This document shows, piece by piece, positions 3,469 through 22,772 of a DNA stretch of 22,772 nucleotides; the stretch's first letter is position 1, and each line of letters begins with the position of its first letter. The notes under the pieces are model-generated. The model ran no database searches and was not told the DNA's origin. It worked only from the letters and a program-made list of their open reading frames with translations. The stretch is from Candidatus Helarchaeota archaeon. Its GTDB lineage: Archaea > Asgardarchaeota > Lokiarchaeia > Helarchaeales > JABXJV01. A program made the translations under genes and the position numbers. The DNA is taken from NCBI GenBank assembly GCA_013375355.1, contig JABXJV010000048.1, positions 1-22,772 on the forward strand, given 5' to 3'.

Positions 3469-3544
3469 AGATACTTAATTTTTAATTAGAGAAAAGAAAT
3501 AAAGCCAATAATTATAAAATAAAATTCGTCAAGGATAGGATGCA

Positions 3545-4993: not shown

Positions 4994-4999
4994 TTTTAC

Positions 5000-5893: not shown

Positions 5894-5917
5894 AAAGAAC
5901 CTTCGATAAGAAATAGT

Positions 5918-6265
5918 TTAAAGCTTAGAATAGGCATTTGATGCTTGAGTTGTAATTTTAGTTAGGGCATCTCGTAAATTTTGAATAACACCTTCAGAAT
6001 TTTGAGGAAATTTAGAGAAGGCATTGTTAATTAATGTCAATGCAGATTGGAAATGTGTACCTTTAGTTATATTTATTGCTAATTCGGTCTCGCGAATTAA
6101 ATCATTAAGAAACCATTTTAAAATTTCCTCGGACGATATTTCCTTATTTGTTTGAGTAATATCTTTATATCTTAAAACATTATTAATCAAAATAATTGTA
6201 AAGCTTTTTAATCTTTCAGCAAAGCAATATTGGTTTATTGCAGGATTAATTTTTTTAATATCCAT
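5918..6265 (-). CDS. Small helical hypothetical protein (115 aa)
   Basis: No family recognised. The whole chain reads as four to five amphipathic helices with little Gly or Pro (for example ILKWFLNDLIRETELAINI and LINNAFSKFPQNSEGVIQNL), suggesting a helical bundle. No signal peptide, membrane helix or Cys/His cluster. ATG at 6265; GGAGG occurs immediately before it, closer than an ideal Shine-Dalgarno spacing. It lies between a helix-hairpin-helix gene (45 nt upstream) and a PfkB kinase (24 nt downstream) on one strand, so co-transcription is likely, but the neighbours do not suggest a shared pathway. Confidence 0.65.
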   Translation of the reverse strand: MDIKKINPAINQYCFAERLKSFTIILINNVLRYKDITQTNKEISSEEILKWFLNDLIRETELAINITKGTHFQSALTLINNAFSKFPQNSEGVIQNLRDALTKITTQASNAYSKL

Positions 6266-6310
6266 TCCTCCATTATTTCAAATCATCAAATTTTATTTTT
6301 TATACTTCTT

Positions 6311-6790
6311 TTATGTTTGAGTTTTTTTATTCTTAACTTGTTTTGTTACTTTTTTACTTTTAATGCTTTTTTTTGCTTTTTTTATCCATAATTTTATATA
6401 CCTTAAATTAATATCAGCATCATCAGCAAGTTGAGCGGGATCTTCATTAGCAAGGTCTTCTATACTAAAAATACCTACATTCCGAAGAGTATTTGCAACC
6501 TCATAACTACATTTTAAAAAATCTTTTAATGTAAAAATAATTTCTTCACTTTTTTCAAATTTTTTTTGTTGTATCATGTCAATAGCTGAATTTTTCCATA
6601 ATTCTATTGTTTTTGGTGGATAACCAATTTTCTCAGATAATTTTTGAGGATTTAATATTTTTAAATCAGAAATTGACTTTATACCAGCATTATATAGTTT
6701 TAAAGCAATTTCTCTATCTATTCCTTTAAGACTTGAAAATTCTTTAATTAATTCTTCTTTTTGCAAAACAATATACGACCTATAAAACAA
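6311..6790 (-). CDS. Double helix-hairpin-helix protein with basic tail
   Basis: 159 residues with two similar units. Unit 1 (about 20-66) reads LKGIDREIALKLYNAGI, then ISDLKILNPQKLSEKIG and IELWKNSA. Unit 2 (about 87-137) reads FLKCSYEVANTLRNVGI, then IEDLANEDPAQLADDAD and IKLWIKKAKK. This is the pattern of DUF4332/HhH domains that bind DNA or RNA backbone without sequence specificity. The last 20 residues are Lys-rich, consistent with nucleic-acid binding. Only non-ATG starts are available: TTG at 6790 or TTG at 6766 (eight codons shorter); the choice is open. It is first of a three-gene minus-strand cluster and divergent from eS26. Role inferred as nucleic-acid binding; no enzymatic residues seen. 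Confidence 0.7.
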   Translation of the reverse strand: MFYRSYIVLQKEELIKEFSSLKGIDREIALKLYNAGIKSISDLKILNPQKLSEKIGYPPKTIELWKNSAIDMIQQKKFEKSEEIIFTLKDFLKCSYEVANTLRNVGIFSIEDLANEDPAQLADDADINLRYIKLWIKKAKKSIKSKKVTKQVKNKKTQT

Positions 6791-6849
6791 TTAATTAAGC
6801 AAAAAAATTAATATTATTAGAATATAAAATTTTTTTTGAGGATTAAATA

Positions 6850-6909
6850 ATGCTCAAAAAATACACGATGACAATCCCTAAAATAGATAGGGGGCATTGT
6901 TTTGCCTAA
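6850..6909 (+). other. Possible 19-codon leader ORF overlapping the eS26 start
   Basis: An ATG at 6850, preceded by TGAGGATTAA (a reasonable Shine-Dalgarno), opens a frame of 19 codons (begins MLKKYTMTIPK) that stops with TAA at 6907-6909, overlapping the TTG start of eS26 by 8 nt in another frame. The G-rich site AGGGGG used by eS26 lies inside it. This could be a leader peptide coupling eS26 translation, or chance; nothing else supports it. Confidence 0.25.
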
Positions 6910-7177
6910 AAAACGTAAGAGCGGTGGTCGTTCTAAAGGATCGAAGGGTTCGGGAGAGTCCGTGCAATGCACTAAATGTGGACGTTTTGTCCCTAGAGAT
7001 AAAGCAAAGAAAAGAACAAGACGAACCTCTATGGTCGACCCGAAAATCTATAAAGAATTAAAAAAACAAGGAGCAATTATTCCAAGAAGAGAATCAACTG
7101 ATTATTATTGTGTAAAATGTGCTGTTCATTATAGGGTAGTTAAAATAAGGAGTAAAGACTCCAGAAAAAATAGATAA
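6902..7177 (+). CDS. rps26e: Small-subunit ribosomal protein eS26
   Basis: 91 residues with the eS26 layout: a basic Gly/Ser/Lys-rich N-terminus (MPKKRKSGGRSKGSKG), a zinc site Cys23-x2-Cys26 and Cys70-x2-Cys73, the PRDKAKKR segment, and the conserved end HYRVVKIRSKDSRK that matches the eukaryotic SKVVRNRSREARK region. eS26 sits near the mRNA exit channel of the small subunit. Among archaea it is known from the TACK and Asgard groups and is absent from Euryarchaeota, so it helps place the organism. The start is TTG (6902) after AGGGGG (6889-6894); no in-frame ATG exists upstream. Confidence 0.93.
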   Translation: MPKKRKSGGRSKGSKGSGESVQCTKCGRFVPRDKAKKRTRRTSMVDPKIYKELKKQGAIIPRRESTDYYCVKCAVHYRVVKIRSKDSRKNR

Positions 7178-7222
7178 ACTTTTAATTATCTTTTTCTTAA
7201 TATATTCTATTATGGGGATTAA

Positions 7223-7588
7223 ATGAGCGTTCATACAACATTGGATGCATGCCGAATCTATCAAAAAGTTGCTTTAAAAAGTGATGCTATAAGAAATGAG
7301 CTTAAAGATTGGGATAAAATCATATTTTTTGATGTAAGAGCTGGCAAAAAATGTTGTTTAAAGATAAAAAATGGAGTAATTGATGTAATAACGGGCGAAT
7401 GTGAAAATCCAAATATGACATTTAAAGGCTTGGATGGACATATTGTGAAATTTTTAACTGGAAGAGATTCTTACACATCACTTGAAATTTTAGGGAATAT
7501 AGAATATGTTGGAAAGAGTATTTCAGACAAAAGTCATTTCATTGCATTAATTGGTCTTTTTATGTCTGAACTTATTGAACAATATTAG
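7223..7588 (+). CDS. SCP2 sterol-binding-like domain protein
   Basis: 121 residues. The strand-rich centre IIFFDVRAGKKCCLKIKNG followed by GECENPNMTFKGLDGHIVKFLTG and a closing LEILGNIEYVGKSISDKSHF fits the SCP2-like fold, which forms a hydrophobic tunnel for lipids or fatty acyl groups; free-standing SCP2 proteins are common in archaea. No catalytic residues are expected. ATG at 7223 follows GGGATT. It lies 45 nt after eS26 on the same strand and might be read through from it, though no functional link is evident. The ligand is unknown; an equally small chance exists that it is a dimerisation module of another lipid-binding family. Confidence 0.75.
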   Translation: MSVHTTLDACRIYQKVALKSDAIRNELKDWDKIIFFDVRAGKKCCLKIKNGVIDVITGECENPNMTFKGLDGHIVKFLTGRDSYTSLEILGNIEYVGKSISDKSHFIALIGLFMSELIEQY

Positions 7589-7794
7589 AAAATTTAATTT
7601 AATATTATTCACTATATTGAATATTTCCCTTTTTTAAGTTAATTCGAATTCTTTGAGTTATTTTTATAAATTTTTATTTATTTTACACATATAAAATAAG
7701 ATTAAAAAGATTGGAAAATAAGAAGTACAGAGAGACAAAAAAACAAAAGTTTTTAAAATTAAATATGAGATAAAAGCAAATAAGAGGAAGAAAT

Positions 7795-8238
7795 ATGTCA
7801 GAAGAAAGCAAAATCGCTATAGAGAATGCGACAAAAAAAAATTTACGTGAATTAAATGAGATTTTTGGGGATGGAGAAGCACATAAACAATATCCTAAAG
7901 CAATACATCGTCTTGTAGAAAAAATTACCAAAGCAAACCTATGGTTATATATACTCCGCCTTTTACAAGAGAAACCGCATTATGGTTATGAAATTAAAAA
8001 TAAGATCAAGGATAAATTTGGATTCTCACCTGCAATTGTAAGTGGGTACGTAATTTTATACAAAATGAAAAAAGATAATTTAGTCACTGTTAAGTGGGAA
8101 CCGAATGATGAAAAAAATCAAAACTCAGGCAAACCAAATAGAAAATATTATTATATTACAGATTTAGGAAATCAAACAATGGAGCTTGCAAGATCTTATT
8201 TAGCTGCTCTAATGACTGAAATCTTTGATAAAGTATAA
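7795..8238 (+). CDS. PadR-family transcriptional regulator
   Basis: 147 residues. A winged helix-turn-helix from about residue 43: LWLYILRLLQEKPHYGYEIKNKI is the PadR helix 1-2 signature, then recognition-helix region FSPAIVSGYVILYKMKKDNLV and a wing GKPNRKYYYITDLG. A short C-terminal helix (SYLAALMTEIFDKV) would serve dimerisation, as in the short PadR-s2 type. The 40-residue N-terminal extension is rich in Glu/Lys/Asn and is not part of the domain. ATG at 7795 follows AAGAGGAAG. The 206-nt upstream stretch is very AT-rich and contains TATA-like boxes but no clear operator. The regulated gene and signal are unknown. Confidence 0.88.
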   Translation: MSEESKIAIENATKKNLRELNEIFGDGEAHKQYPKAIHRLVEKITKANLWLYILRLLQEKPHYGYEIKNKIKDKFGFSPAIVSGYVILYKMKKDNLVTVKWEPNDEKNQNSGKPNRKYYYITDLGNQTMELARSYLAALMTEIFDKV

Positions 8239-8254
8239 CATCTAATTTTAATTA

Positions 8255-8286
8255 AGAAAAAATCTCATCTTAGTCAGATTTCTTTT
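8255..8286. terminator. Hairpin between convergent PadR and lipid-synthase genes
   Basis: AAATCT (8260-8265) pairs with AGATTT (8276-8281) over a 10-nt loop; after one mismatch the stem continues with A/T and G-U pairs. A-rich sequence to the left and T-rich to the right make it a candidate bidirectional terminator for the convergent genes ending at 8238 and 8295. Confidence 0.35.
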
Positions 8287-8294
8287 ATTTAATA

Positions 8295-9026
8295 TTAGTC
8301 GTCAGAATTTTGTTCTGTTATTGGTTCTTTTGGGAAATTCTTATATGCCGCAATTATTCTGTGAACAACTGTAATTTGTGTTATAATGGCTAGAATTAAA
8401 ACGCCGAAACCTATAGGTCCCCAGCGTTGATCTATAATTGAATTAGGATCAGTATAATAAATTAAGCCTTGAATAAAAATAGTAGCACAAATAATAAGCA
8501 TACGCTCAGAACGTTCTGCAATTCCTACAGCCATGTGTTTGCTATCAACTCCTCCTGCCTCCCCTCTGGCTCTGGTATAAGACACAAGAAAGGACCCAAT
8601 TATGGCAAAAATTCCGACATATAATTCACAATATCCAGAATAAATTATAGCGAATAGATAAATTGTATCAGAATAACGATCCAAAACTGAGTCCAAAAAA
8701 CCTCCAAAAACCGTAATATTATTTTGATATCTTGCAACTGCACCATCGAATACATCAAAAAATCCGGACCAAAATAAGCAAACAAGCGCAAAAGCTAAAA
8801 ATAAAATTCTAGTATTTTCAGATAAAATATACGAAAAACCAAAAAATTCAATTTTAGGTGTTAAAATTTGTGATAAATAAATCATTACACCAGTTAAAAT
8901 AGATATAGAAAACCCAATCACTGTAATTCTATTAGGGGTTAGTCCAATTCTGTCTCCAAACCTTCCTAATGGCTCCAAAATTTTTTTTAATTTCGGCTTT
9001 GCTTTTGTTCCTACCAAGGTTTTCAC
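8295..9026 (-). CDS. CDP-alcohol phosphatidyltransferase, likely archaetidylinositol phosphate synthase
   Basis: 243-residue membrane enzyme with about six hydrophobic helices. The full family signature D-x2-D-G-x2-A-R-x8-G-x3-D-x3-D is present: Asp91, Asp94, Gly95, Ala98, Arg99, Gly108, Asp112, Asp116. The family condenses a CDP-linked diradylglycerol (CDP-archaeol in archaea) with an alcohol. The downstream SYTRARGEAGGV segment (149-160) resembles inositol-phosphate-using archaeal members, hence the tentative substrate of L-myo-inositol 1-phosphate; serine or glycerol phosphate cannot be excluded. Start is GTG at 9026; the ATG two bases further up hits TGA at once. No Shine-Dalgarno is obvious, so the message may be leaderless. 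It is followed at a distance on the same strand by nothing; the PadR gene converges on it. Confidence 0.88.
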   Translation of the reverse strand: MKTLVGTKAKPKLKKILEPLGRFGDRIGLTPNRITVIGFSISILTGVMIYLSQILTPKIEFFGFSYILSENTRILFLAFALVCLFWSGFFDVFDGAVARYQNNITVFGGFLDSVLDRYSDTIYLFAIIYSGYCELYVGIFAIIGSFLVSYTRARGEAGGVDSKHMAVGIAERSERMLIICATIFIQGLIYYTDPNSIIDQRWGPIGFGVLILAIITQITVVHRIIAAYKNFPKEPITEQNSDD

Positions 9027-9154
9027 ATAAAATTGTATTTTTATAAGAATTTCAGAAAAATTATAAAAATGTTTTTGAACAGAAATGATATAAAAATATT
9101 TAAGTTCTCCTTAAAACATCGTTTTTTCTAAATTTTTGAAGAAAGAGAAATTAG

Positions 9155-10903
9155 TTAATTAGTAATTTTTTGAAATCTATTTATTATCCAATTTTTATCT
9201 AGTAATAATAAAAGAGGTGCCAATCTTGGACCTGACTTTCTTCCTATAAGAGCTAAATAAATAGTTTCAAAGAATTTTTTTGGATTTCCGAGTGATTTTC
9301 CAATTGTAAATAATTGGTTTTGGAGCTCTTGATCATCCCAATCAACATCTTTTTGAACTAATTTTTCAACTTGTATTAAAACGGATTTTTGGTCCGCTGT
9401 AAATTTATTTTTAAGTTCTAATAGTTTTTCTTCCGAAAAATCGAATTTCAACTTTTCAGGGGCAAAATTATTAATCCAATATCTAGCCCTGTTCAAAGTA
9501 TCATTAATTATAGTCTTAATTTCACCATTAATGACTCTTTTATTATAAGTTCTAGATATCATATCTCTTGATTTTTCTAAAATTTGTTTATGAGGTAATA
9601 AAGCTTCAAGTTGGGATATATCAATTGCAAATCTAAAGGGCAGAAAATAAGGCATTTTATCTGAAATTTTTTTAATTTGGATTAATTCATAAAGTCTTAT
9701 ATTATAATCCTTTCTCTCATCTTTTTCTAAACCATAGTATATCTTTGTCAGTTTCTCGAAATCGAAAATTAATTTTGGAATATCATTATGATCGTCAATC
9801 ATTTTATACATATTTTTGAGTTTCTGAAGGGACATAATATTAGTTTGAGAATTTGGTTTGCGAAGAAAGAATAATTTTAAGGTTTCTGGTGGTGCTAAAC
9901 TAGGCCAATCCCACGTAGAGATTATATTTCCTTTAGAAGCACTCATCTTTTCTTTTCCAATTAATATATACTCATAAGGTTGTAAATCATTGCTCGCTTT
10001 AGTTGGACAGGGTTCAGGCCAATCATAAATCAATTCTGATATTGTTCCTGCAACCCAAAAAGAACCTACACCTACAGGACCATAACCTTCGTGTGGACAA
10101 TTAACCCCATGTTCCTTTCCAAAAGGTTCAAATGTTACATCCCAAATATGCCATTCAGCTGCCCATTCGGTTTTCCAACCCAATTTTCCAAATCCTTTCT
10201 TAATATCACTAACTCCTTCATGACCACAACCCTTTACAGTTGCATGTTTAAATTGATAATCTTCACATGAATAAGTAACATTATCACCATCGATCTTTTT
10301 CATACGAGTAGTAATTATCTTACCACAGTTATCACAAATTGGCTGCCAGGGAATCCAATTCTCAGGTAATGGATTGGCAGGGTTTCGATATTTATTAATA
10401 ATTTCTCTTAATTTTTTCACTTTTTCTAAAGCAATTTTAATTTCATTATAAAATTTTCCAGCTCTATAATATTTTGTAGTTGAATAAACCTCCATTTTTA
10501 CTCCAAAATTATCTTTTAAACTATTTACGAATAAATTAACAAAGTGATCAGAATAATTGTCACAGCAACCCTCTGGGCAAGGCAGATCACTTACGGGTTT
10601 ACCTAAATATTTTTTAAATTCTTTCGGGATACCTGCTGGAACTTTGCGGAATGGATCTGAGTCCTCTGTAACCCAAAAGAATTTAATATTTTTTTCCCCA
10701 CTATCTCTTAAAGCTTTTACAACAGCTTCGGCTCTAAATACATCACATGCATTCCCAATATGGGGAACACCTGAAATAGAGGTGCTGCTCTTAATTGAAT
10801 GTGGAGTTTTGGGAATCTTCTTATCAATATAATTATATTTTTCTCTTTCTATCAATTTCTTAGCTAATTTATCTGCCCATATATGCGTTTTAGACTCTGC
10901 CAT
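9155..10903 (-). CDS. lysS: Class I lysyl-tRNA synthetase
   Basis: 582 residues; it charges tRNA-Lys. The class I Rossmann signatures are HIGN (48-51, in SGVPHIGNACD) and KMSASK (319-324, in GKEKMSASKGN). A zinc-ribbon insertion shows Cys190-x2-Cys193 and Cys213/Cys226. The C-terminal third is helical, as expected for the alpha-helix-cage anticodon domain. Class I LysRS is typical of many archaea, whereas most bacteria and eukaryotes use an unrelated class II enzyme. ATG at 10903 with a weak GTGGT upstream. It lies 128 nt upstream of the phosphatidyltransferase gene on the same strand. Confidence 0.97.
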   Translation of the reverse strand: MAESKTHIWADKLAKKLIEREKYNYIDKKIPKTPHSIKSSTSISGVPHIGNACDVFRAEAVVKALRDSGEKNIKFFWVTEDSDPFRKVPAGIPKEFKKYLGKPVSDLPCPEGCCDNYSDHFVNLFVNSLKDNFGVKMEVYSTTKYYRAGKFYNEIKIALEKVKKLREIINKYRNPANPLPENWIPWQPICDNCGKIITTRMKKIDGDNVTYSCEDYQFKHATVKGCGHEGVSDIKKGFGKLGWKTEWAAEWHIWDVTFEPFGKEHGVNCPHEGYGPVGVGSFWVAGTISELIYDWPEPCPTKASNDLQPYEYILIGKEKMSASKGNIISTWDWPSLAPPETLKLFFLRKPNSQTNIMSLQKLKNMYKMIDDHNDIPKLIFDFEKLTKIYYGLEKDERKDYNIRLYELIQIKKISDKMPYFLPFRFAIDISQLEALLPHKQILEKSRDMISRTYNKRVINGEIKTIINDTLNRARYWINNFAPEKLKFDFSEEKLLELKNKFTADQKSVLIQVEKLVQKDVDWDDQELQNQLFTIGKSLGNPKKFFETIYLALIGRKSGPRLAPLLLLLDKNWIINRFQKITN

Positions 10904-11096
10904 AATTTATACCACTATATTTCGATAAAAAAATTGTTCTTTTTTTTAAACAAGTCAATTACTTTAAAATTTAATTATTTTTTTATTATTTTTTAATCTG
11001 AAGATTATAGGAAAAAAATAATCAAGGGATAAAAAGAATTTATTTATGTGAATTAATTTTATTTTTTTAGATAGATAAAATATAGTGGGAATAAGA

Positions 11097-11591
11097 ATGA
11101 TCCGCGCAGTTTATGCGTTTCACAAAAACGGACAGTTGATGTTCTCTAAACAATTTTTTAGAGAAGAAACACTTGATAAGCAACATAGTCCGGATTTAAT
11201 CACTGGACTTTTATCCGCAATTTCACAATTTGCGGAGTCTATGGGGGGAAAAGGGATTCAGAAAATTGAGATGGAGGAGAAATATTCAATTATTGGGATT
11301 CATAGTCCTAAATATTCCGTAAGACTTGTCATTTTAACCGACTTGGGGGATGATACTGGTGAATGTAACTATTTTTTAAAACGTTGTAGACAAAGTTTTG
11401 TCTTAAAAAATAGAAAGGCTTTGGAAAAAATAAGAAAGGGAGCATTGGTAAATACTGATCATTTTTTAGATTGGGGGGAAAATAATTTACCAAGGTTAAT
11501 GCATGACTTAGAACTCATGTCAATAGAAGAAGCCATGTCAGGGACAATAAGAAAAATTGCAAAATTGGCTAAAGATAAAAAAGAGAAATGA
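11097..11591 (+). CDS. Longin-like small protein
   Basis: 164 residues from ATG 11097, which follows GTGGGAATAAG; a GTG at 11085 in frame would add four residues. The opening MIRAVYAFHKNGQLMFSKQ, a beta-hairpin that ends in a turn (NGQ) then [LM]FSK, is how longin folds (SNARE, AP sigma and SRP-receptor types) begin. It is followed by helix PDLITGLLSAISQFAESMG, then strands KIEMEEKYSIIGIHS and YSVRLVILTD. That strand-helix-strand order supports a longin/roadblock-type fold over about 110 residues. The C-terminal 45 residues are helical and charged. Asgard genomes carry many such domains, linked by inference to small-GTPase or membrane roles. The assignment is by pattern, not catalytic motif. 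Confidence 0.65.
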   Translation: MIRAVYAFHKNGQLMFSKQFFREETLDKQHSPDLITGLLSAISQFAESMGGKGIQKIEMEEKYSIIGIHSPKYSVRLVILTDLGDDTGECNYFLKRCRQSFVLKNRKALEKIRKGALVNTDHFLDWGENNLPRLMHDLELMSIEEAMSGTIRKIAKLAKDKKEK

Positions 11592-11599
11592 ATTTTTTA

Positions 11600-11629
11600 T
11601 TTCAAATTAAAAAAAGGTGATATTTGAAA
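11600..11629. terminator. Hairpin between convergent longin-like and hydrolase genes
   Basis: TTTCAAAT (11600-11607) and ATTTGAAA (11622-11629) form a perfect 8-bp stem with a 14-nt loop in the 43-nt gap between two convergent stop codons. A T-rich run precedes it on the plus strand. A candidate bidirectional terminator. Confidence 0.4.
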
Positions 11630-11634
11630 ACTCT

Positions 11635-12216
11635 TTATTTAAATTCTTTTTCTACCTCTTTTTCTGTTATAACTTTAGCATTATGAACAGTTTCCATTTG
11701 TTTTAATGCCCATTCATGGTCTTCAATCGCTAATCCTGCAGTACCGTCTTTAACCACTACTACCTTATAACCGCGTTGGGATGCATCTGCACTGCTATAC
11801 ATTATGCAAATATTAGTAAGAACACCAGTTAAAATCACTGTGTTAATGTTTAATTCTCTCAACCACAAGTCTAAATCAGTTCCATAGAAGCCGCTATATC
11901 TGCGTTTCGGGATTACGACTTCTCCTCCTTCTAAATCTGGTTTTAATTCATCAATCACCATAGCTCCTTTCGTTCTGGCAACACAATGAGGTGGCCAAAT
12001 TTTAAATTCAGGATCTGTCTTTTTATGGTTATCACAAAGATATAATACGCTCCAACCTTTGTCTCGGGCATAATTTAGAAGTTTAGATATAGTTGGAACA
12101 ATTTTACGACCAGCGGGTACTTCTAATGAAGCTCCTTCATTTATAAAATCATTTAACATGTCAATGATAAGTAAAGCTTTATCGGGCAATTTTAATTCCT
12201 CGAGCTGATATACCAA
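11635..12216 (-). CDS. Isochorismatase-like cysteine hydrolase, probable nicotinamidase
   Basis: 193 residues. Catalytic triad visible as Asp19 (LLIIDMLNDF), Lys104 (VVIPKRRYSGF) and Cys137 (TGVLTNICI), with the usual cis-peptide region at GVLT. The nicotinamidase metal site is also present: Asp62, His64 (CDNHKKTDPEF) and His77 (WPPHC). Nicotinamidase deaminates nicotinamide to nicotinate for NAD salvage; the metal ligands favour it over plain isochorismatase or other amidases, which usually lack them. The gene is divergent from rnhB, whose start lies 76 nt away, and convergent with the longin-like gene. Start ATG at 12216, with only a short leader before AT-rich TATA-like sequence. Confidence 0.85.
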   Translation of the reverse strand: MVYQLEELKLPDKALLIIDMLNDFINEGASLEVPAGRKIVPTISKLLNYARDKGWSVLYLCDNHKKTDPEFKIWPPHCVARTKGAMVIDELKPDLEGGEVVIPKRRYSGFYGTDLDLWLRELNINTVILTGVLTNICIMYSSADASQRGYKVVVVKDGTAGLAIEDHEWALKQMETVHNAKVITEKEVEKEFK

Positions 12217-12292
12217 TTTTATAAATATTTGTTTCCTAATTGATATAAATATTAAAAATATTAATAAAATTCATCTTGGGTAAATTTTTAGA

Positions 12293-12988
12293 ATGAATGA
12301 AATAATTATAGCTGGAATTGATGAGGCAGGTAGAGGCCCTCTTTTTGGTCCAATGGTAATGGCGATAGTTGCAATAAAAAAAAATGAACAAGGTTTTTTA
12401 GTAGACTTGGGAGTAAAAGACAGCAAACAATTAACACCAGAAAAACGTACTAAAATTAGCTCTAAATTGAAAAAAACAATTAATTATGAAATTGTTTCTA
12501 TTTCACCAGAAGAAATAGATAATGCCTTAATATCAAAAGAATTAAATTTAAATTGGTTGGAAGCCATAAAATCCTCTGAATTACTTATCGCTTTGAATAA
12601 AAGGATTAAAATTGACAAACTCTATTTAGATTGCCCTAGTAATAATATAAAAGCATATACAAAATACTTGAAAAACTACATATCAACTCTTTCAAAATCT
12701 GTAAAACCTCAAATTATCGCAGAATTTAAGGCAGATGAAATATATCCAGTTGTATCTGCTGCTTCTATTCTTGCTAAAGTGGAAAGAGACAGAGAAATTC
12801 AAAAATTGAAAGAAGAGTATGGTGATTTAGGAAGTGGTTATCCGTCTGATGAGAAAACAAGAAAATTTTTAAAAAACTGGATAAAAAAGCATAATGATTT
12901 ACCACCATTTGTTCGCAAAACATGGAAAACTGTGAAAAATATTAAAAATGAATTGTCACAAAAAAAATTAGATAGTTTCAATAAATGA
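12293..12988 (+). CDS. rnhB: Ribonuclease HII
   Basis: 231 residues. It cleaves RNA in RNA-DNA hybrids, including single ribonucleotides in DNA. Motif GIDEAGRGPLFGPMV gives Asp10 and Glu11; Asp113 lies in YLDCP and Asp148 in FKADEIYPVVSAASILAKVERD, completing the DEDD metal site. The VKDSKQL segment (41-47) is also conserved. The C-terminal 35 residues are Lys-rich, as in many archaeal forms. The length fits the archaeal family. ATG at 12293 has no strong Shine-Dalgarno. It stands alone, divergent from the nicotinamidase-like gene. Confidence 0.96.
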   Translation: MNEIIIAGIDEAGRGPLFGPMVMAIVAIKKNEQGFLVDLGVKDSKQLTPEKRTKISSKLKKTINYEIVSISPEEIDNALISKELNLNWLEAIKSSELLIALNKRIKIDKLYLDCPSNNIKAYTKYLKNYISTLSKSVKPQIIAEFKADEIYPVVSAASILAKVERDREIQKLKEEYGDLGSGYPSDEKTRKFLKNWIKKHNDLPPFVRKTWKTVKNIKNELSQKKLDSFNK

Positions 12989-13096
12989 GAGTACGATTTA
13001 AATCCAATTTATTTTAATTAAATGTATCAAAAATATCAAAAATTCAATAAAGGTAATTTTGTTAAAAAATAATTAATTATATCTATTTGAGTTATA

Positions 13097-14368
13097 ATGA
13101 AAATTAAATCGATTTTTATATTCGGGCTATTAATAGGGCTTTTAACGTTTTCTACATTTATTTATAACTCAAATGCTCAATATTATTTTAATTTTGACAC
13201 ATTTAAACTTGAGGAGGACCCTAATATTGTTACTCGGAGGGATCTGATTCTTCATTTTATGACACTTAATTTTTATGATGCTGGTATGAAAGGTTTTTCA
13301 AACAAGATTAGCGGTCATGTAGATTTAAAAACAACCTATCAGGGGATTTCCGCAGTAACTTCAATATTTGGTCAATACAAAGGCATTAGTATGCCTTGGT
13401 TGATATTTTGGCTAACTGGTACTTTTAAAGGATTATATGGTCAAATTGCGGGCAGTAATATACCTATTGAGTTTTATTTCGGAAAGATTACCAGTTTTAT
13501 TGGTTCAAGATGGAATGTATCCTTAAGAGCATATGGTGAAAATAGTAAATACGACTTAAATCTATATAGTACTTACTATGCAGTAGCAGCTCTTGAACTT
13601 CTTGGAAAGAGTGCCGACTCTCGTATTGTAAATTTCGTCGATAGTTTACAAAATGATGACGGGGGATTTAGCAATACTTATAATCAATCTTCATCTTTAC
13701 GAGCAACTTTGTATGCCATTAGATTGTTAAGGAAATTTGGAAGATTAGATTTAATCGATAACGCTTCAGATTGGATTATTCAGACTCAAAATTTAGAGGT
13801 TAGTTCAGAAAACTATGGTGCCTTTTCGGGCAATAAAACTGACCCAACATACGCAATTTATTCAACTTATGAAGCCATTTCAGCTTTACTTGCTGCCAAT
13901 GGATCTCTTATAGGTATAAATAAAATTGCTGCCGCAAACTGGATTGCGGCCCGTCAAAATCTAAATCAAAAATCAGGAAGCGGATCAGATTATGGAGGGT
14001 TTGGAAATCCAAATGATATTAGATCTATCATGTCAAGCTCTAGCGCAGCAGTTAAAGCTTTAAAATTATTAGGCGGACTTAGTAGAATAAAATTTCTTGA
14101 ATTAATTATTTGGGTATTTTCTAGCCAAAGATTACTATATGGAGGGTTTGGATCCTCCCCTGCGACATCAGTTTCTACAGTTTCATCAACTTACCATGCA
14201 TTAGAAATTTTGAAAGTGTATGGATGGCCTATTTTATTACTTTTCACACAAGTTCCGTGGCAATTAGAATCCGAATTACATTGGAGTTTATGGCTTTTAA
14301 TCTTATTGACAGTATTCTTAATTTCAATAGTCATTTTACAAGCAATTTGGAAACGAAGAAGAGAATAA
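13097..14368 (+). CDS. Secreted, membrane-anchored prenyltransferase-like (alpha/alpha toroid) protein
   Basis: 423 residues. Signal peptide 1-27 (hydrophobic FIFGLLIGLLTFSTFIY, cleavage after SNA). A C-terminal membrane helix (about 396-416) followed by KRRRE would anchor the protein with its bulk outside. The ectodomain carries repeats of the squalene-cyclase/protein-prenyltransferase-beta type: helix pairs each ending in DGGF (188-191), YGAF (240-243), YGGF (299-302) and YGGF (348-351), preceded by ST[YA].A..AL or similar. The Asp/Cys/His zinc ligands of prenyltransferases and the DxDD of cyclases are not seen, so catalysis is doubtful; a binding scaffold at the surface is more likely. Start ATG at 13097. 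Convergent with methylmalonyl-CoA mutase. Confidence 0.8.
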   Translation: MKIKSIFIFGLLIGLLTFSTFIYNSNAQYYFNFDTFKLEEDPNIVTRRDLILHFMTLNFYDAGMKGFSNKISGHVDLKTTYQGISAVTSIFGQYKGISMPWLIFWLTGTFKGLYGQIAGSNIPIEFYFGKITSFIGSRWNVSLRAYGENSKYDLNLYSTYYAVAALELLGKSADSRIVNFVDSLQNDDGGFSNTYNQSSSLRATLYAIRLLRKFGRLDLIDNASDWIIQTQNLEVSSENYGAFSGNKTDPTYAIYSTYEAISALLAANGSLIGINKIAAANWIAARQNLNQKSGSGSDYGGFGNPNDIRSIMSSSSAAVKALKLLGGLSRIKFLELIIWVFSSQRLLYGGFGSSPATSVSTVSSTYHALEILKVYGWPILLLFTQVPWQLESELHWSLWLLILLTVFLISIVILQAIWKRRRE

Positions 14369-14385
14369 AACTCTAAAATCTCTTC
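14358..14385. terminator. Hairpin across the end of the toroid-protein gene
   Basis: GAAGAGA (14358-14364) and TCTCTTC (14379-14385) form a perfect 7-bp stem with a 14-nt loop that includes the TAA stop (14366-14368). It lies between convergent genes ending at 14368 and 14405. A candidate bidirectional terminator. Confidence 0.4.
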
Positions 14386-14404
14386 CCACATTTGAAATAA
14401 TATA

Positions 14405-16063
<1,659 letters not shown>

Positions 16064-16238
16064 TTATCTCATCTCAAGCAATTACATGAATAAAAAGAAT
16101 TTTGAAAATTTATCAAATATCATCTTTTTTGAGACAAATTATTTATTACTCAAATAAAAATATAATTTTTCAAAAGTTATTATTTAATTTTTTATTGCTG
16201 CATAAAAAGAAAAAAAATAAATTACTATGTTATTATGC

Positions 16239-16778
16239 TTACTTTTTCATTTCTTTACCTTTTTCTTTGAGCTCTTTTAGTAACTTTTTTTCCAACCCTC
16301 CCCCTTTTAAAATATCCAAGAGGAGTTCTGGAATAAGACTAGCTTTAAAGGTTTTTCCTGTTGTCTTATTTTTAATTTCAGCAGTAGAAACATTGATTTC
16401 TATCTCATCCCCTGTATTAAATTCCTTTGATATCCCGTCTAATTCAAATAATGGTAGACCTATTGCAAATGAGGACCTATAAAAGATACGTGCGAAGGAT
16501 TCAGCAACTACCGCATTAATCCCTTTTTCTCGAAGGATAATTGGAGCAGTTTCACGACTTGAACCACAACCAAAATTACGACCAGCTACAATTACATCTC
16601 CTTCTTTTACTTCACTTGGAAATTCCTTAATAACAGTATCACAAGTATGTGCAAGTGTTGCTTTAACATCATCCAAGTATTTTCCAGGTGTAATTACATC
16701 AGTATCTACATTATCTGGGAATAGCCATACTTTCCCAATAACTTGTTCTTTATATCCTCCTTTTTTTAATTCCATCAT
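16239..16778 (-). CDS. leuD: 3-isopropylmalate dehydratase / homoaconitase-type small subunit
   Basis: 179 residues from the ATG at 16778. Swivel domain of the aconitase family that pairs with the Fe-S large subunit. It shows FPDNVDTDVITPGKYL near the N-terminus and the substrate loop GRNFGCGSSRETAP. A perfect GAGGTGAT (16790-16783) sits just before this ATG, so it is preferred over a TTG at 16799 that would add seven residues and overlap leuC. It starts 17 nt after the leuC stop, forming an operon. The partner acts in leucine or a related 2-oxoacid chain-elongation path; sequence does not decide between isopropylmalate and homoaconitate type substrates. The Lys-rich C-terminal tail is unremarkable. 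Confidence 0.93.
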   Translation of the reverse strand: MMELKKGGYKEQVIGKVWLFPDNVDTDVITPGKYLDDVKATLAHTCDTVIKEFPSEVKEGDVIVAGRNFGCGSSRETAPIILREKGINAVVAESFARIFYRSSFAIGLPLFELDGISKEFNTGDEIEINVSTAEIKNKTTGKTFKASLIPELLLDILKGGGLEKKLLKELKEKGKEMKK

Positions 16779-16782
16779 GTTA

Positions 16783-16790
16783 ATCACCTC
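16783..16790 (-). promoter_or_regulatory. Shine-Dalgarno of leuD
   Basis: GAGGTGAT on the minus strand, a full anti-16S match, lies four bases before the ATG at 16778. It decides the leuD start. Confidence 0.75.
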
Positions 16791-16795
16791 ATTTT

Positions 16796-18082
16796 TCAAA
16801 ATTCCCGAGCATCAGTAATTACTCCTTTAATAGCTGATGCAGCAACAGTGGCTGGAGAACCTAAATAAATTCCTGCACTTTCAGATCCCATTCGACCCTT
16901 AAAATTTCTATTTGAACTTGAAATGCAATTTTCACCAGGTGCAAGCATGCCTTGATGGGCTCCAAAGCAAGCACCACAATTGGGGTTACAAATAAGTGCT
17001 TCAGCATTTATTAATGTCTCAGCAACACCTGTCTTTGCTATTTTAAGCCAAATTTCTTGACTTGCTGGAGTAACAATCATTCGAACATCATTATGTACTT
17101 TATTTCCTTCCAATATTTTTGCCGCAATTTCAATGTCTTCAAACCTTCCATTAGTACACGACCCGAGAAATGCTTGATGGATTTTAGTACCTTGGACTTC
17201 CGTCACGGGTTTTACATTATCAACCGTATGTGGACAGGCGATTTGAGGCTCCAAATCAGAAACATCCATCTCATATGTTTTTTCATAAACTGCATCACTA
17301 TCAGGTTTGACTAATTCGAATGGTTTATCTGTTCTAGCTTTAACCCAATCAACAACTTTTTGATCCGGAACACCAAATGCAAACTTTGCACCAAGTTCTA
17401 GAGAAAAATTGGACATTGTTATTCGAGATGCTATAGATAAATCTTCCATAGTCTTTCCAGTATATTCAATTGATTTATATGTTGCTACTTCTGCTGTATA
17501 ATCCCCTGCTATTTTTAATATAATATCCTTACTCATAACATGATGAGGCAATTTTCCGTTAATATTAAATTTAATAGAACTAGGAACTCTAAACCATAAC
17601 TCTCCTTTAACATAAGCATAAAAGAGATCTGTATTCCCTAATCCACAACTTGCAGCATTAAGCGCTCCATATGTTGTCGTATGGCTTTAGCGGAATCATA
17701 AAAATTATGATTTGTCGCCGCCCACAATCAACATACCGGGTCTTACATGACCTTTTTCAGGAAGAACCTGATGACATATCCCAGCTTTTACATCATAAAA
17801 ATGCTTTATTTTTTGTTTCTTTGCGAATTGTCTGATGAGACCATGTGCCATAGCCATTCGCTCGTTCGGTGCGGGGACATAGTGATCAAATAATATCACA
17901 ATTTTATCGGTATCAAACACTTTCCTTAGCTTTGACGGTCTAATCTTACCAAAATCTATAGCTACCTTCGCAGTACCGATATGAGACATTATCAACTCAA
18001 TTTTTGCAGTGATAAATTCTCCTGGTTTTACAATATCTTTTTCACAATGCGATGCCATAATTTTTTCAGCTATCGTACTCAA
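16796..18082 (-). CDS. leuC: 3-isopropylmalate dehydratase / homoaconitase-type large subunit, interrupted by a 27-nt intron
   Basis: Coding sequence is 18082-17714 joined to 17686-16796, giving 419 residues, the normal archaeal length. The [4Fe-4S] enzyme isomerises 2-isopropylmalate or a homologue with LeuD. Exon 1 (residues 1-123) ends PGMLIVGGD; exon 2 begins SHTTTYGALNA, rebuilding the invariant aconitase-family DSHT. Cluster cysteines lie in FLGSCTNGR and CNPNCGACFGAHQG. The genomic frame is unbroken in register but has TAA, TGA and TAA codons inside the insert. Start is TTG at 18082, nine bases after GAGGTGA (18098-18092). leuD follows after 17 nt. Both exons look under normal coding constraint with no other lesions, which argues against a decayed pseudogene. 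If the insert is not removed, the product would stop at 125 residues and be inactive. Confidence 0.9.
17679..17725 (-). other. Bulge-helix-bulge splicing motif
   Basis: On the leuC transcript: outer helix GUG-GGC (17725-17720) with GCC-A-UAC (17685-17679), 6 bp with A17682 bulged; central 4-bp helix GGCG (17719-17716) with CGCU (17692-17689), one G-U pair; 5' bulge ACA (17715-17713); 3' bulge AAA (17688-17686); inner 8-bp helix inside the intron. The two 3-nt bulges on opposite strands of a 4-bp helix are the recognition element of archaeal tRNA-splicing endonuclease, which cuts between the second and third base of each bulge. Here that gives GAC|A and AA|A. One deviation: C17693 is unpaired opposite the 5' bulge. 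Confidence 0.75.
17687..17713 (-). other. Putative 27-nt bulge-helix-bulge intron in leuC
   Basis: The segment lies between codon 123 (GAC, 17716-17714) and codon 124 (AGC, 17686-17684). It holds three in-frame stops (TAA 17707-17705, TGA 17698-17696, TAA 17689-17687). It is mostly a hairpin: AATCATAA (17712-17705), loop TTT, TTATGATT (17701-17694). Removing it restores Asp-Ser-His-Thr without any frame change. The boundaries are those predicted independently from the bulge-helix-bulge fold described in the next entry. Alternatives: ribosomal bypassing (but no matching take-off and landing codons), or a recent inactivating insertion. Confidence 0.8.
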
Positions 18083-18091
18083 CTTAAAATT

Positions 18092-18098
18092 TCACCTC
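18092..18098 (-). promoter_or_regulatory. Shine-Dalgarno of leuC
   Basis: GAGGTGA on the minus strand, nine bases before the TTG at 18082. It supports the TTG over the in-frame ATG eight codons downstream. Confidence 0.7.
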
Positions 18099-18272
18099 TT
18101 ATAAACAACAAAATGTATATTTTATTAATTTTGTTAGCAAATAAAAAATACTACGAAATAATTTATTACTATTTAATTATTGGATGAGTAATAACTCAGC
18201 CTTTATCTTTTTCAAAAATATATTGGTATTAAATTAAAAAAATGATATTTAAATTCTATAGAAGATTATAAA

Positions 18273-19373
18273 ATGAAAAAAACCATCCTATGCATGCTTA
18301 AGACAGACATTCATGATCATTTTTTTTATAAAGTTCAAATTTCAGAACTGAAAAAGCTCGTAGAATCCTTAAATTATCAAATAGTGGAGGAAATAGTTCA
18401 AACACGTTCAAAAAAAAGGTCTAAATTTCTTATAGGAAAAGGTAAAGTTCAAGAGATAAAGCAATTAATTCAAGAGCAAAATATTGAATCTGTTATTTTT
18501 TACAACACATTAACAAGTAAACAAAAACTTAACTTACTAACCGAGTTATCTGGTAATCAAGAGATTGAAATTTTGGATAGATATGAACTTACGCTAAAGA
18601 TTTTTGAACAAAATGCATCTGACAAACTTTCAAAAATTCAAATTCAATTAGCCCAATTAAGAAAGCAATTTCCTTTCTATAAATTACAAGCAAATATAAA
18701 ATTTAAACAAGATCTACCAGCTCGAAAATTTGGTCCAGGAGAATTCGCATTTCACTCAAAAATTAAAAGTTATGATAAGAAAATTGCGGCTATACGAACT
18801 GAAATTGAGTCACTTAAAGCGAAGAAATTAGAAAGAATCCAAAAAAGAAGAAAGATTTTGAATGGTGGAAAAATTTGTTGCATAGTAGGATATTATAATG
18901 CGGGAAAGACTACTTTATTTAATTTACTAACTGGAGCGAAAAAACTTATCAGCGATCAACCTTTTACCACTTTATCGAGTAAATATCGAAGAATTAATAA
19001 AAATATTAATTTAATTCTAGTTGATACCATAGGATTTGTAATAGGTTTAGATCCTAGATTGATTAAAAGCTTCGAATTGAACTTATTAGATATGCAAAAT
19101 GCTGATATTTTAGCATATTTAATAGCACTTGATGATGAGCTTGATTTAATTAATCATAAATTAAAATATGGTTTAGAATTGCTAAAGGACATTGGAATAG
19201 ATTCTGAGAAAATTATATTAATTTTTAATAAATATGATTTGATTTCAAAACAAGAATTTGAATCAACCATTCAATATTTGGAACCTATTATCTCTAAATA
19301 TCGTTATTTTTGTATTTCTGCAAAAAATAAAGAAAATATTAATGATTTATTATCATACTTTGAATATAACTAA
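18273..19373 (+). CDS. hflX: HflX-family ribosome-associated GTPase
   Basis: 366 residues. The N-terminal HflX domain (1-195) includes FLIGKGKVQEIKQLI (52-66) and a long coiled-coil (about 110-195). The GTPase domain has G1 GYYNAGKTT (206-214), G3 DTIGF (251-255), G4 NKYD (319-322) and G5 SAK (349-351). HflX binds the large ribosomal subunit and splits stalled or idle ribosomes. The family's glycine-rich segment, usually GPGETQLE, reads GPGEFAFHS here (154-162), so the stretch after GPGE has changed. ATG at 18273. Divergent from leuC and convergent with the ACR3 gene, 34 nt away. Confidence 0.93.
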   Translation: MKKTILCMLKTDIHDHFFYKVQISELKKLVESLNYQIVEEIVQTRSKKRSKFLIGKGKVQEIKQLIQEQNIESVIFYNTLTSKQKLNLLTELSGNQEIEILDRYELTLKIFEQNASDKLSKIQIQLAQLRKQFPFYKLQANIKFKQDLPARKFGPGEFAFHSKIKSYDKKIAAIRTEIESLKAKKLERIQKRRKILNGGKICCIVGYYNAGKTTLFNLLTGAKKLISDQPFTTLSSKYRRINKNINLILVDTIGFVIGLDPRLIKSFELNLLDMQNADILAYLIALDDELDLINHKLKYGLELLKDIGIDSEKIILIFNKYDLISKQEFESTIQYLEPIISKYRYFCISAKNKENINDLLSYFEYN

Positions 19374-19407
19374 ACAGTATAATTCAAAAAAAATTGATAT
19401 TCTATAT

Positions 19408-20466
19408 CTATTTTCGTTTTCTTGGAAAACGATCTTTTAATTTCCAAGCTATAGTTATAAATGCCACCATTAAAGGAACTTCCCATAAAGGTCCTATAAC
19501 CGTGGCGAATGCTGCGGAGCTTCCTACTCCGTATAAGGCGATAGCAGTTGCAATTGCGATTTCAAAATGCGAACTAGATCCTATAATAGTTGACGTAACA
19601 GATTGTTCGTATGTAAATTTCATAGCCCAACAAGCTAAAAATACCAAAGAAAACATTATAACATATCCAATGACTAATGGAATAGTTATGATTAAAACGT
19701 CCAAGGGTCTATTGATAATAACATCTCCTTGAAGTGAAAATAGTACAACTAATGTAATTAATAATGCAATTATTGCTATTTTGTCTAGGAAAGGTTTAAA
19801 ATTATTTGTATAATATTCTTTTCCTTTCCTATTATAGATTATTTTTTTTGTGATAATTCCTAAAGTTAATGGAATTGCTAGAAAAAATATTGTACCAAAT
19901 AATAAAGTCTCAAATGGGACATGAATTCCACTTAATCCTATTAATAAAGTAGCGAGAGGAGAATATAGAAACAAAATAAGAATACTATTTAGAGATGTGT
20001 TAATTAATCCTTGATTAATATCTCCTTTACCAAATTTATTCCAAAAAAGAACCATTGCTGTGCATGGAGAAGCACTTAATAAAAGTAAACCAACAATATA
20101 TTCTTGATTTGGATTAAAAAAGTTTACACCTGCATCAAAAAAGGCGTGAGCCAAAAAAAACCCTAATATAGGATTTATCAGCCAATTTGCTATTACTGTT
20201 ACTAACATGGGTTTTGGGGCTTTAGCGACATTTTTTAACTCGGAAAGTTCAATATTAATAAGAGTTGGATACATCATAAAGAATAAACATATTGCAATAG
20301 GTACAGAAAACCCAGCAACTTGAAAACCTGCAAGAGCATCTGAAATAAATGGAAAAAATTGACCTAATAAAATACCAATTATCATAAAAGATACAATCCA
20401 TAATGTCAAATATTTCTCAAATATACCCATTTTTACTTCTTCTGTTTCTTCTTCCAATTTAAACAC
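19408..20466 (-). CDS. acr3: ACR3-family arsenite efflux permease
   Basis: 352 residues with ten hydrophobic helices. It pumps arsenite (and possibly antimonite) out of the cell using the ion gradient. Family landmarks: Cys135 in SASPCTAMVLFWNKFGKGD, a conserved functional residue, and the late helix GSSSHFEIAIATAIALYG with its Glu, then GPLWEVPLM. Start is uncertain: GTG 20466, TTG 20457 (after GGTG with good spacing) or ATG 20430; the first residues (EEETEEVKMG) are a non-conserved charged tail. It is divergent from an ArsR gene across 106 nt, the classic arsenic-resistance arrangement. Confidence 0.95.
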   Translation of the reverse strand: MFKLEEETEEVKMGIFEKYLTLWIVSFMIIGILLGQFFPFISDALAGFQVAGFSVPIAICLFFMMYPTLINIELSELKNVAKAPKPMLVTVIANWLINPILGFFLAHAFFDAGVNFFNPNQEYIVGLLLLSASPCTAMVLFWNKFGKGDINQGLINTSLNSILILFLYSPLATLLIGLSGIHVPFETLLFGTIFFLAIPLTLGIITKKIIYNRKGKEYYTNNFKPFLDKIAIIALLITLVVLFSLQGDVIINRPLDVLIITIPLVIGYVIMFSLVFLACWAMKFTYEQSVTSTIIGSSSHFEIAIATAIALYGVGSSAAFATVIGPLWEVPLMVAFITIAWKLKDRFPRKRK

Positions 20467-20572
20467 CTTTAAATACTTTTGATTTAATTATAAATCGATG
20501 ATTATCTATTTGAAATGATGAAAATCGATATAAAAATATAATTATAAATGTCAAAATTAATAGGGTTATTAA
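20467..20572. promoter_or_regulatory. Divergent acr3/arsR promoter region
   Basis: AT-rich spacer with an ArsR-family repressor on one side and its expected target on the other. ATCGAT occurs twice, at 20494-20499 and 20524-20529, 30 nt apart, each near a TATA-like run (GATATAAAAATAT at 20527-20539 toward arsR; TTTATAATTAAA on the minus strand at 20494-20483 toward acr3). The paired ATCGAT boxes are candidate operator half-sites; repressor binding is inferred from context only. Confidence 0.4.
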
Positions 20573-20983
20573 ATGACGGAAGATATTGAACATAAACAAT
20601 TAAAAATACTAATGGAATGTAAGCAAGATACCTCTGACATAAATAAATATATTAATGAATTAAGAGAATTAAAAGAAAACCTTGAAAAAAATCAAGAATT
20701 AAATATATTTCTAAAAATAAATAAAGCTTTATCCGAAATGAATCGATTTTTAATTTTTCAAATGCTCATTGAAAAGGAAGAAATGTGTATCTGTGAATTC
20801 TCGATTGCGCTCAATTTAAAACAATCCACTATATCTCATCATCTTCAAAAATTAGAAGAAAGTGATTTAATAGAAGGCATAAAAAGTGGAAAGTTTATTC
20901 ATTATAGAATAAAAAAATCAGGTATTCAAAAATATTTGGACTTAATTGATAAAATAGCTAACCTAAAAACTTTAATTAAGTGA
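20573..20983 (+). CDS. arsR: ArsR-family metalloid-responsive repressor
   Basis: 136 residues. Winged helix from about residue 47: NRFLIFQMLIEKEEMCICEF, then the recognition helix KQSTISHHLQKLEESDLI and the wing EGIKSGKFIHYRI. Cys72 and Cys74 (MCICEF) match the ELCVCDL metal box at the start of the recognition unit, where As(III)/Sb(III) binding releases DNA in this family; a third Cys (16) lies in an unusual N-terminal extension of about 45 charged, probably coiled-coil residues. Adjacent divergent acr3 makes it the probable repressor of that pump. ATG at 20573 after TAGGGTTATTAA. Confidence 0.93.
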   Translation: MTEDIEHKQLKILMECKQDTSDINKYINELRELKENLEKNQELNIFLKINKALSEMNRFLIFQMLIEKEEMCICEFSIALNLKQSTISHHLQKLEESDLIEGIKSGKFIHYRIKKSGIQKYLDLIDKIANLKTLIK

Positions 20984-21018
20984 TAGTCTCTTATTTCATT
21001 TTAATTCTCTTGAGACTA
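20984..21018 (+). terminator. Stem-loop directly after arsR
   Basis: TAGTCTC (20984-20990) starts at the base after the arsR stop and pairs with GAGACTA (21012-21018): a 7-bp stem over a 21-nt T-rich loop. It may terminate or stabilise the arsR transcript. A run of six Gs follows at 21035-21040. Confidence 0.35.
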
Positions 21019-21157
21019 CTATAAGATGACTTAAGGGGGGTAATAAAAACAATAACAATATTCATTTTCTGTTTACTATATCATTTAATATGGTAGAATT
21101 TCATTTATTAATAAATAATGAATAAAGAAGATTATTAGAACTTTAAAATGGGATTGC

Positions 21158-22772
21158 ATGTCAGACACCAGAGAATTTGATATTGAAGATACTGTCATTC
21201 TAATGGACGTATCACGTTCGATGGCAAGAAAAGATTTTAATCCTTGCAGAATTGAAGCTGTTAAAAGTGCTCTTATAGAATGGGTCAAATTAAAACATAA
21301 TATAGATAAAGCAGATCGATTCGCACTTATCACATATTCTACAACTGGTCAAGTAGTGCAAGATTATACTGATGATTTAGATCAAATTATTAGTGCAATA
21401 AAAAATGTTAGGGTACACGGAATTTCAGCTTTGGGCGAAGGTATGGGGTTTACAGTTCAATTCATAGGTCAAAAGATGGCAAAGGCAGGAGATTCTGCTA
21501 GTGGGGGGAATGTTAATCGTATCTTAATAATATCAGATGGAAAAGCATCACTTTCTAGCATTGACCCCATCGAGAGGGCAAATGTAGCTGCGGAATTAGG
21601 AATAATCACCGATTGTATTGAAATTTCAAAACTGGAAACTAGATCTTTTGGTAAATTATTAGAATCAATGGCAATTCTAGGGGAATTTTATAATATTTAT
21701 GATAAATCCTTGCTTGAAGTTACTATAAAAAGCTTGAGCCATAAAAAAGATGTCTTTGAATTGAAAAAAACGATGCCAAATTTATCCTTAATTGCTGCTG
21801 ATTTATTAGATTTGACCAGCCTTTCAGAAGAGATGCAAAAGGCGGTAAATAAATTAATGGGAGTAAAAGTAAATTTTTGTGAAATTTGTAGATCTAATAA
21901 TTGCCCTGTTGATGGAACTACGGAATGCATTAGATTATGTCCATATTGCAAAACAGGAATGCATATTCACTGTGCTGAAGAGTGGGCTAAACAAAGTAAA
22001 ATGATTGAAGGTGGAGTTTGCAGATGTCCGCATTGTTTATTTTTATTAAAATTACCTATTACAGAAAAACCGACCTCAAAACCTGCTTCTAAAATAATAG
22101 CACCTCCTACCAAACCTACGGCTTCACAAACTTCGCAAACTAAACAACCTACAACTCCCCCTCAGCAAGAAGGACAGGCACCATTAAACACAGCTGCAAC
22201 AGCGAAAATAGGAGATTTTGTTTTAGAAAATGATAAAGTTAAATTAAAAATAGAACATCGAGGGGAGGAAAAGTTCATTTATCTGGCATGGGATAATTGG
22301 GGAAAAGAAAATTATTCATGTAATATCATTTCTGGTATGAGCGATCTCGTATGTAAGGAATTTCATCCAAAAATAGATTGGTCTCAAGGTAACTGCACTG
22401 GTTTTATAATTCGTGATATGATTGGATGGTTCAGCTCGACATCAATTCAACATGGAGTTTTTATTTACAATTTAGATGAATTTGAAAAATGGAATAAAAG
22501 AGTCTTGAAAGATATTTCAAATATTAAAAAATTAAATGCTGAACATCCTGAAATAAAATTCAGTTCTGATAAAATAATGGATTTCTTATTAGAAGCAGAA
22601 GTTAAGTTTGCAGAACCCCTAAAAGTTAGTGATCGTAATTCTTTAGAAGGAAATTTATTATTAGGGGCAATGACATATTTAAACCTTTTTGAAAGTGTTA
22701 TAACTCCAATTAAAAAAGTCAAGGAAGCGAAAAAACCAAAGAAAATCCCTGTAGCTCAGACTCAAGAAGCGG
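21158..22772 (+). CDS. VWA-domain protein with RING-like zinc finger, C-terminus beyond window
   Basis: 538 codons visible without a stop; the gene runs off the right edge. Residues 10-210 form a von Willebrand A domain with a complete-looking MIDAS: Asp17-x-Ser19-x-Ser21 (LMDVSRSM), the HGISALGEGM loop, and IISDGKAS. Residues 241-293 hold a Cys/His cluster: Cys241, 244, 249, 257, 261, 264, His269, His271, Cys272, Cys288, 290, 293. The part CPYC...HIHC..EW...CRCPHC resembles the second half of RING or RING-like fingers. A Pro/Thr/Gln-rich linker (about 303-345) leads to a second globular domain (from GDFVLENDKVKLKIEH). ATG at 21158 after GGGATT. No signal peptide, so cytosolic. A substrate-binding VWA coupled to a ubiquitin-ligase-like finger is possible but unproven. 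Confidence 0.85.
   Translation, partial: MSDTREFDIEDTVILMDVSRSMARKDFNPCRIEAVKSALIEWVKLKHNIDKADRFALITYSTTGQVVQDYTDDLDQIISAIKNVRVHGISALGEGMGFTVQFIGQKMAKAGDSASGGNVNRILIISDGKASLSSIDPIERANVAAELGIITDCIEISKLETRSFGKLLESMAILGEFYNIYDKSLLEVTIKSLSHKKDVFELKKTMPNLSLIAADLLDLTSLSEEMQKAVNKLMGVKVNFCEICRSNNCPVDGTTECIRLCPYCKTGMHIHCAEEWAKQSKMIEGGVCRCPHCLFLLKLPITEKPTSKPASKIIAPPTKPTASQTSQTKQPTTPPQQEGQAPLNTAATAKIGDFVLENDKVKLKIEHRGEEKFIYLAWDNWGKENYSCNIISGMSDLVCKEFHPKIDWSQGNCTGFIIRDMIGWFSSTSIQHGVFIYNLDEFEKWNKRVLKDISNIKKLNAEHPEIKFSSDKIMDFLLEAEVKFAEPLKVSDRNSLEGNLLLGAMTYLNLFESVITPIKKVKEAKKPKKIPVAQTQEA

Follow-up and report, generated by a model that had tools for sequence, protein, structure and literature searches.

How can a full-length protein be made from a leuC reading frame that is interrupted by stop codons? 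The gene lies on the minus strand (18082-16796) of the window, the whole 22,772-nucleotide stretch of DNA analysed here, which comes from an archaeon closely related to Helarchaeota, an Asgard lineage recovered as order Helarchaeales inside class Lokiarchaeia in the accessible portion of PMC9723677. leuC forms a single reading frame apart from 27 nt at 17713-17687, which contain three in-frame stops (KS*FL*FR*), TAA and TGA among them. A preliminary description of this DNA had reported the insert and its three stops, and both are exact to the base. Removal of the insert leaves a single open frame of 419 amino acids that reads across GGDSHTTTYGA (RPGMLIVGGD^SHTTTYGALNAASC at the junction), and against NF001614, the aconitase/3-isopropylmalate dehydratase large-subunit family, the joined product scores 558 bits, well over the cut-off of 385. 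With a probability of about 0.93, the insert is a bulge-helix-bulge (BHB) intron that can be removed by the tRNA-splicing endonuclease EndA, with the exons joined by the ligase RtcB; we infer splicing from the evidence set out below.

Fold across the leuC junction

As a rule, archaeal EndA cleaves BHB motifs between the second and third bases of the bulges. Minus-strand positions 17745-17660 fold as such a motif (-28.6 kcal/mol, z = -3.87), and none of 200 shuffles matches the stability of this fold. Folding recovered every part that had been claimed for it, namely a 3-bp GGC/GCC outer helix, bulges of 3 nt (ACA and AAA), a 4-bp GGCG/CGCU central helix, an 8-bp inner helix, and an extra unpaired C17693 (Table 1). 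When the EndA rule is applied to the two bulges, GAC-AGC-CAT-ACG and the reading frame are restored, which confirms a further claim of the preliminary description. When the insert was shifted by -6 to +6 nt, the full central helix formed at only one of the 13 positions, the one originally described. Furthermore, shuffled leuC inserts fit within 3 nt of the junction set by homology at a rate of 0.00085, a fit being defined as 4/4 central pairs, 4 or more inner pairs and 1 or more outer pairs. The BHB motif alone is no proof of an intron, because loose matches are common (33,708 in 2.80 Mb, counting both strands and inserts up to 120 nt). An Rfam search of the window, covering self-splicing introns and the other described families, returned zero family matches at the gathering score.

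Table 1. Positions in the window of the leuC exons, the insert, the elements of the predicted fold and the neighbouring ORF.
Feature	Position	Strand	Basis
leuC exon 1, TTG start to GAC	17714..18082	-	ORF and joined frame
Outer helix, 5' arm GGC	17720..17722	-	Fold
Central helix, 5' arm GGCG (exon)	17716..17719	-	Fold
5' bulge ACA, predicted cut AC^A	17713..17715	-	Fold
27-nt insert, predicted BHB intron	17687..17713	-	Fold and joined frame; also present in L001
Inner helix, 5' arm AATCATAA	17705..17712	-	Fold
Inner helix, 3' arm TTATGATT	17694..17701	-	Fold
Extra unpaired C, T in G001	17693..17693	-	Fold; comparison with G001
Central helix, 3' arm CGCT (insert)	17689..17692	-	Fold
3' bulge AAA, predicted cut AA^A	17686..17688	-	Fold
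Outer helix, 3' arm GCC	17683..17685	-	Fold
leuC exon 2, AGC-CAT-ACG to TGA stop	16796..17686	-	ORF and joined frame
Neighbouring ORF, presumably leuD-like, overlapping the leuC end	16239..16799	-	ORF list

Two readings that leave the RNA uncut are extremely unlikely. The stops could be recoded and read through, a notion to which PMC9723677, in its accessible portion, lends some background, as selenocysteine is inferred in Asgard archaea and pyrrolysine in Sifarchaeia; however, TAA and TGA occur together inside the leuC insert, and the EF2 inserts of 29 and 31 nt and the RNase Z insert of 29 nt described below change the frame. Alternatively, LeuC could be split into two assembling chains with exon 2 started separately, but the first listed start after the junction is at 17551, from which the D-S-H-T motif would be lost.

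leuC in related genomes

A scan of genome contigs found three loci, two of them close. The preliminary description had proposed a search for relatives with and without the insert, and both exist: Ca. Helarchaeota LW55_61 (G001; locus L001) carries a 27-nt insert at the identical site, to the same base, while L002 (80% identity) carries none. An assembly error is unlikely, because the same insert occurs in this independent record. Three further predicted LeuC proteins (P0001-P0003; 89, 87 and 85% identity to that of the window) are continuous over 419 amino acids, and their genes lack the insert, since each is one open frame. A tree was built from 33 of the 120 listed LeuC proteins plus the two joined insert-bearing ones, 35 in total; the window and G001 form one clade among continuous proteins, with a local support of 0.981, and P0001 and P0002 are its next neighbours. 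A pattern scan of viral contigs for the leuC insert and its flanks gave 0 matches.

The window and G001 inserts differ at 3 of 27 positions, which are the unpaired C, one bulge base, and the closing base of the innermost pair. Because this closing base has changed, one pair of the window is lost and the inner helix of G001 has 7 bp. The insert is not clearly slower to change than third codon positions (3/27 compared with 26%; P 0.053), and 0 of 15 pairs have changed on both sides.

Both exons of leuC are under purifying selection, and the gene is not decayed. Between the window and G001, dN is 0.036 and dS is 0.55 (dN/dS about 0.065-0.07 overall), and for exon 2, which lies behind the stops, the values are 0.028 and 0.50 (dN/dS 0.056), indicating that exon 2 is translated in frame by some means. 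A rival reading is that leuC and the other interrupted genes are pseudogenes with small insertions. Decay of this kind would suit the presence in G001 of another, intact LeuC-family gene, as well as the lone stops without an insert in leuC of G044 and G014, which belong to the same class. It is nonetheless highly improbable in view of the low dN/dS of the whole gene and of exon 2, the retention of the same insert in two species, and the BHB geometry that EF2 interruptions show in every case across several genomes. The preliminary description had itself named an intact second copy beside a decaying one as a threat to its reading; this objection fails, as dN/dS is low, exon 2 included, and the other G001 gene is a paralogue, its identity being only 51%. 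The LeuC-family genes of G044 (L019) and G014 (L032) were rejected as intron candidates, as each has a lone in-frame TAA and no insert; the TAA may be a point stop, a sequencing error or a sign of decay.

Inserts in other genes and genomes

The forecast that similar mini-introns are hidden elsewhere proved correct: counting the window together with 18 genomes, 10 sites carry 25 inserts between them, each 27-33 nt long. The interrupted genes are leuC, a LeuC-like gene, RNase Z, an XRE-CBS regulator, and two EF2 paralogues, with EF2 affected above all. The scan for short BHB inserts in conserved genes that had been suggested was run, and it yielded the EF2, RNase Z and XRE-CBS inserts of G001, which were thus found by the motif itself; the remaining inserts were found as interrupted homologues, apart from that of the window leuC, which came from the preliminary description. 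In 25 of 25 inserts there is a full 4-bp central helix with 3-nt bulges at a homology-compatible junction, some EF2b junctions having been placed by hand with the motif choosing among homology-compatible positions. Both bulges start with A in all 25. When inserts were swapped between sites, a 4/4 central helix formed in 32 of 474 combinations, and when the letters of the first 12 inserts were shuffled, the fit was reached in 0.00085 to 0.010 of cases. A frame-joining scan of 2.8 Mb, filtered for inserts up to 40 nt and a score of 32 or more, gave 5 matches when the proper cut was applied and none when the 5' cut was displaced by either 1 or 2 nt. Long candidates (inserts up to 120 nt, same score) were dropped, with 12 matches for the proper cut versus 7 and 3 for the shifted ones; those printed resemble chance joins of adjacent genes. 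The stop in the XRE-CBS gene of G002 (L194) was likewise set aside, as it is the end of the gene. A weak XRE match in G029:C1 has a stop, and one TAG was flagged in the EF2a match of G071:C89 (L210), where the stretch inspected is open.

The junctions lie at GGD^SHT in LeuC, DTPGH^VD and HGK^TT in EF2, and DCGE^GTQ in RNase Z, where the exon arm of the central helix falls in codons of conserved motifs. Introns may persist at such codons because the exon arm there can hardly drift. The second EF2 is interrupted in 14 of the 70 genomes that have the gene, in one of them twice; a single EF2b gene (L208, G036:C4) has one 30-nt insert at ITAH^IDHG and another of the same length at MTDSD^D. In G023, both EF2 paralogues (L197 on C272; L209 on C200) are interrupted at the same P-loop codon, HGK^TT, by inserts that differ (31 and 30 nt) and that both have ATGG/CCAT as central helix.

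Pairing evidence beyond leuC comes from EF2. Pairs changed on both sides number 6 of 16 between G001 and G004, 3 of 12 between G001 and G081, and 2 of 15 between G022 and G023, counts that lean toward structure because the hairpins were compared by structural position; one G001/G081 double change joins a silent exon base with an insert base. Of the cells in nine EF2b sequences, representing 8 distinct ones, 93.3% pair, compared with 20-44% after sliding. Among 500 shuffles, 3 attain the covariation score; double changes, however, occur at only two pairs, a number equalled in 140 of the 500. Weaker points are short inner helices in EF2b of G027 and G036 and, at several EF2b sites, an outer helix of just 0-2 bp.

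Some exon sequence around the EF2b inserts can pair as well. In 10 of the 11 EF2b genes with an insert at MTD/MTDSD (L192, L193, L198, L199, L201-L203 and L205-L208), exon GCTCC and GGAGC can pair around the insert, the exception being that of G027. The full GCTCC arm occurs in 0 of 4 insert-free EF2b genes inspected. G023 and G031, which are without this insert, have GCTCC and lack its partner.

The breadth of this set also allows translational bypassing to be weighed, in which the ribosome hops over a hairpin insert and the RNA is left intact. Precedents are phage T4 gene 60 and the byp elements of Magnusiomyces mitochondria. Hairpin inserts of similar size in many genes are in keeping with bypassing, and purifying selection on exon 2 would be expected however the two parts are joined. 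Bypassing is disfavoured, however, because none of the 12 inserts tested has a take-off triplet that matches its landing triplet; moreover, exon bases on both sides pair with the 4-bp/3-nt spacing of an EndA substrate in 25 of 25 inserts, which bypassing does not need. It is accordingly regarded as very improbable, and removal of the inserts as BHB introns is the preferred reading for these genes as for leuC.

Predicted splicing machinery and related introns

EndA has a catalytic triad of Tyr, His and Lys. G001 encodes two EndA-type proteins and RtcB; splicing endonuclease and ligase genes were found in G001 and five other genomes, the RtcB of G017 as a piece only. The catalytic EndA-type protein of G001 retains this Tyr-His-Lys triad, and its closest solved structure is Aeropyrum EndA (3p1z, 3.9e-45), to whose K44-P45-R46 its KPK aligns. 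In the other protein, Pro replaces His in the alignment to 1a79, so that it looks like a structural subunit. Residues of the crenarchaeal loop (CSL) are linked to relaxed substrate choice, and the CSL signature is a Lys, then Pro or Val, then a second basic residue (PMC12397907, accessible portion). This signature is present in the catalytic subunit, and the enzyme of G001 is predicted to be an (alpha-beta)2 EndA whose loop confers broad specificity. The two subunits, the signature and RtcB together suggest that such an EndA does the cutting and RtcB the joining. EndA would cut the BHB of leuC mRNA at AC^A and AA^A, RtcB would then join the exons, and the joined mRNA would be translated into full-length LeuC; we infer each of these steps, cleavage, ligation and translation alike.

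The closest known counterpart is the intron of crenarchaeal cbf5, which, as far as the available excerpts of PMC2738675 go, is likewise a short coding-region insert with a BHB-like fold over its junction and a patchy distribution among relatives. The preliminary description knew of no such intron as short as this one, which is wrong, as cbf5 introns measure 16-44 bp (PMC2738675) and this range covers the 27 nt of leuC. The present inserts differ in interrupting leuC, EF2, RNase Z and XRE-CBS genes, in belonging to another phylum, and in occurring in several genes of one genome, with one gene having two. Many cbf5 motifs are relaxed according to the same excerpts, whereas all 25 inserts here have an intact central helix and full bulges; conversely, cbf5 splicing was shown on RNA, and that of the present inserts is predicted. 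PMC2738675, in the same excerpts, also states that predictions of introns in other archaeal protein genes had yet to be confirmed, and a 2020 paper, in its accessible portion, names no archaeal mRNA besides cbf5 and its own case as having a BHB intron (PMC7714728). Its own case comes from Haloferax volcanii HVO_1309, where the BHB intron is located in the 5' UTR and similarly makes an mRNA an EndA substrate, as is predicted here; that intron lies outside the coding region and was cleaved in vitro, in contrast to inserts within coding regions. Archaeal tRNA introns, found in 92-95% of tRNA genes of the Asgard Atabeyarchaeia and Freyarchaeia in the accessible portion of PMC11291895, share the recognition element and presumably the enzymes, but their host RNA is tRNA, not mRNA. 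Among the published open-access papers found by searching, judged by title and start of abstract, none dealt with mRNA introns of Asgard archaea.

An Asgard lineage, among the prokaryotes nearest eukaryotes, thus appears to hold, in one genome, several genes, EF2 included, that are readable whole only after removal of a short RNA. Gene callers would break or shorten such genes. The insert set offers many natural test substrates for the gain, retention and loss of mRNA introns without a spliceosome. A wider and rather doubtful reading is that mini-introns are a standing, spreading class of elements in Lokiarchaeia mRNAs, which would enter codons of invariant motifs, perhaps via reverse splicing of excised RNA, and move between paralogues, as suggested by the two EF2 genes of G023 with their shared P-loop codon and ATGG/CCAT helix. 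Were this so, elongation factor and amino-acid synthesis would depend on EndA, and splicing could control them.

The tRNA calls of G001 were not used as evidence, as ARAGORN gave doubtful intron-bearing tRNA-Ser calls and cmscan 5 tRNAs in 140 kb. No insert passed the strict filter on contigs C1 and C2 of G001 (980 kb); contig C6 (314 kb; L050-L065) carries 3 of the 4 introns found in this genome. The window is collinear with C6 at 85.5% (2164-11576) and 87.7% identity (12294-18136). Collinearity breaks just upstream of leuC (18136-18249), with window positions 2164-18136 corresponding to C6:232-248 kb and positions 18249-22768 to C6:197-202 kb.
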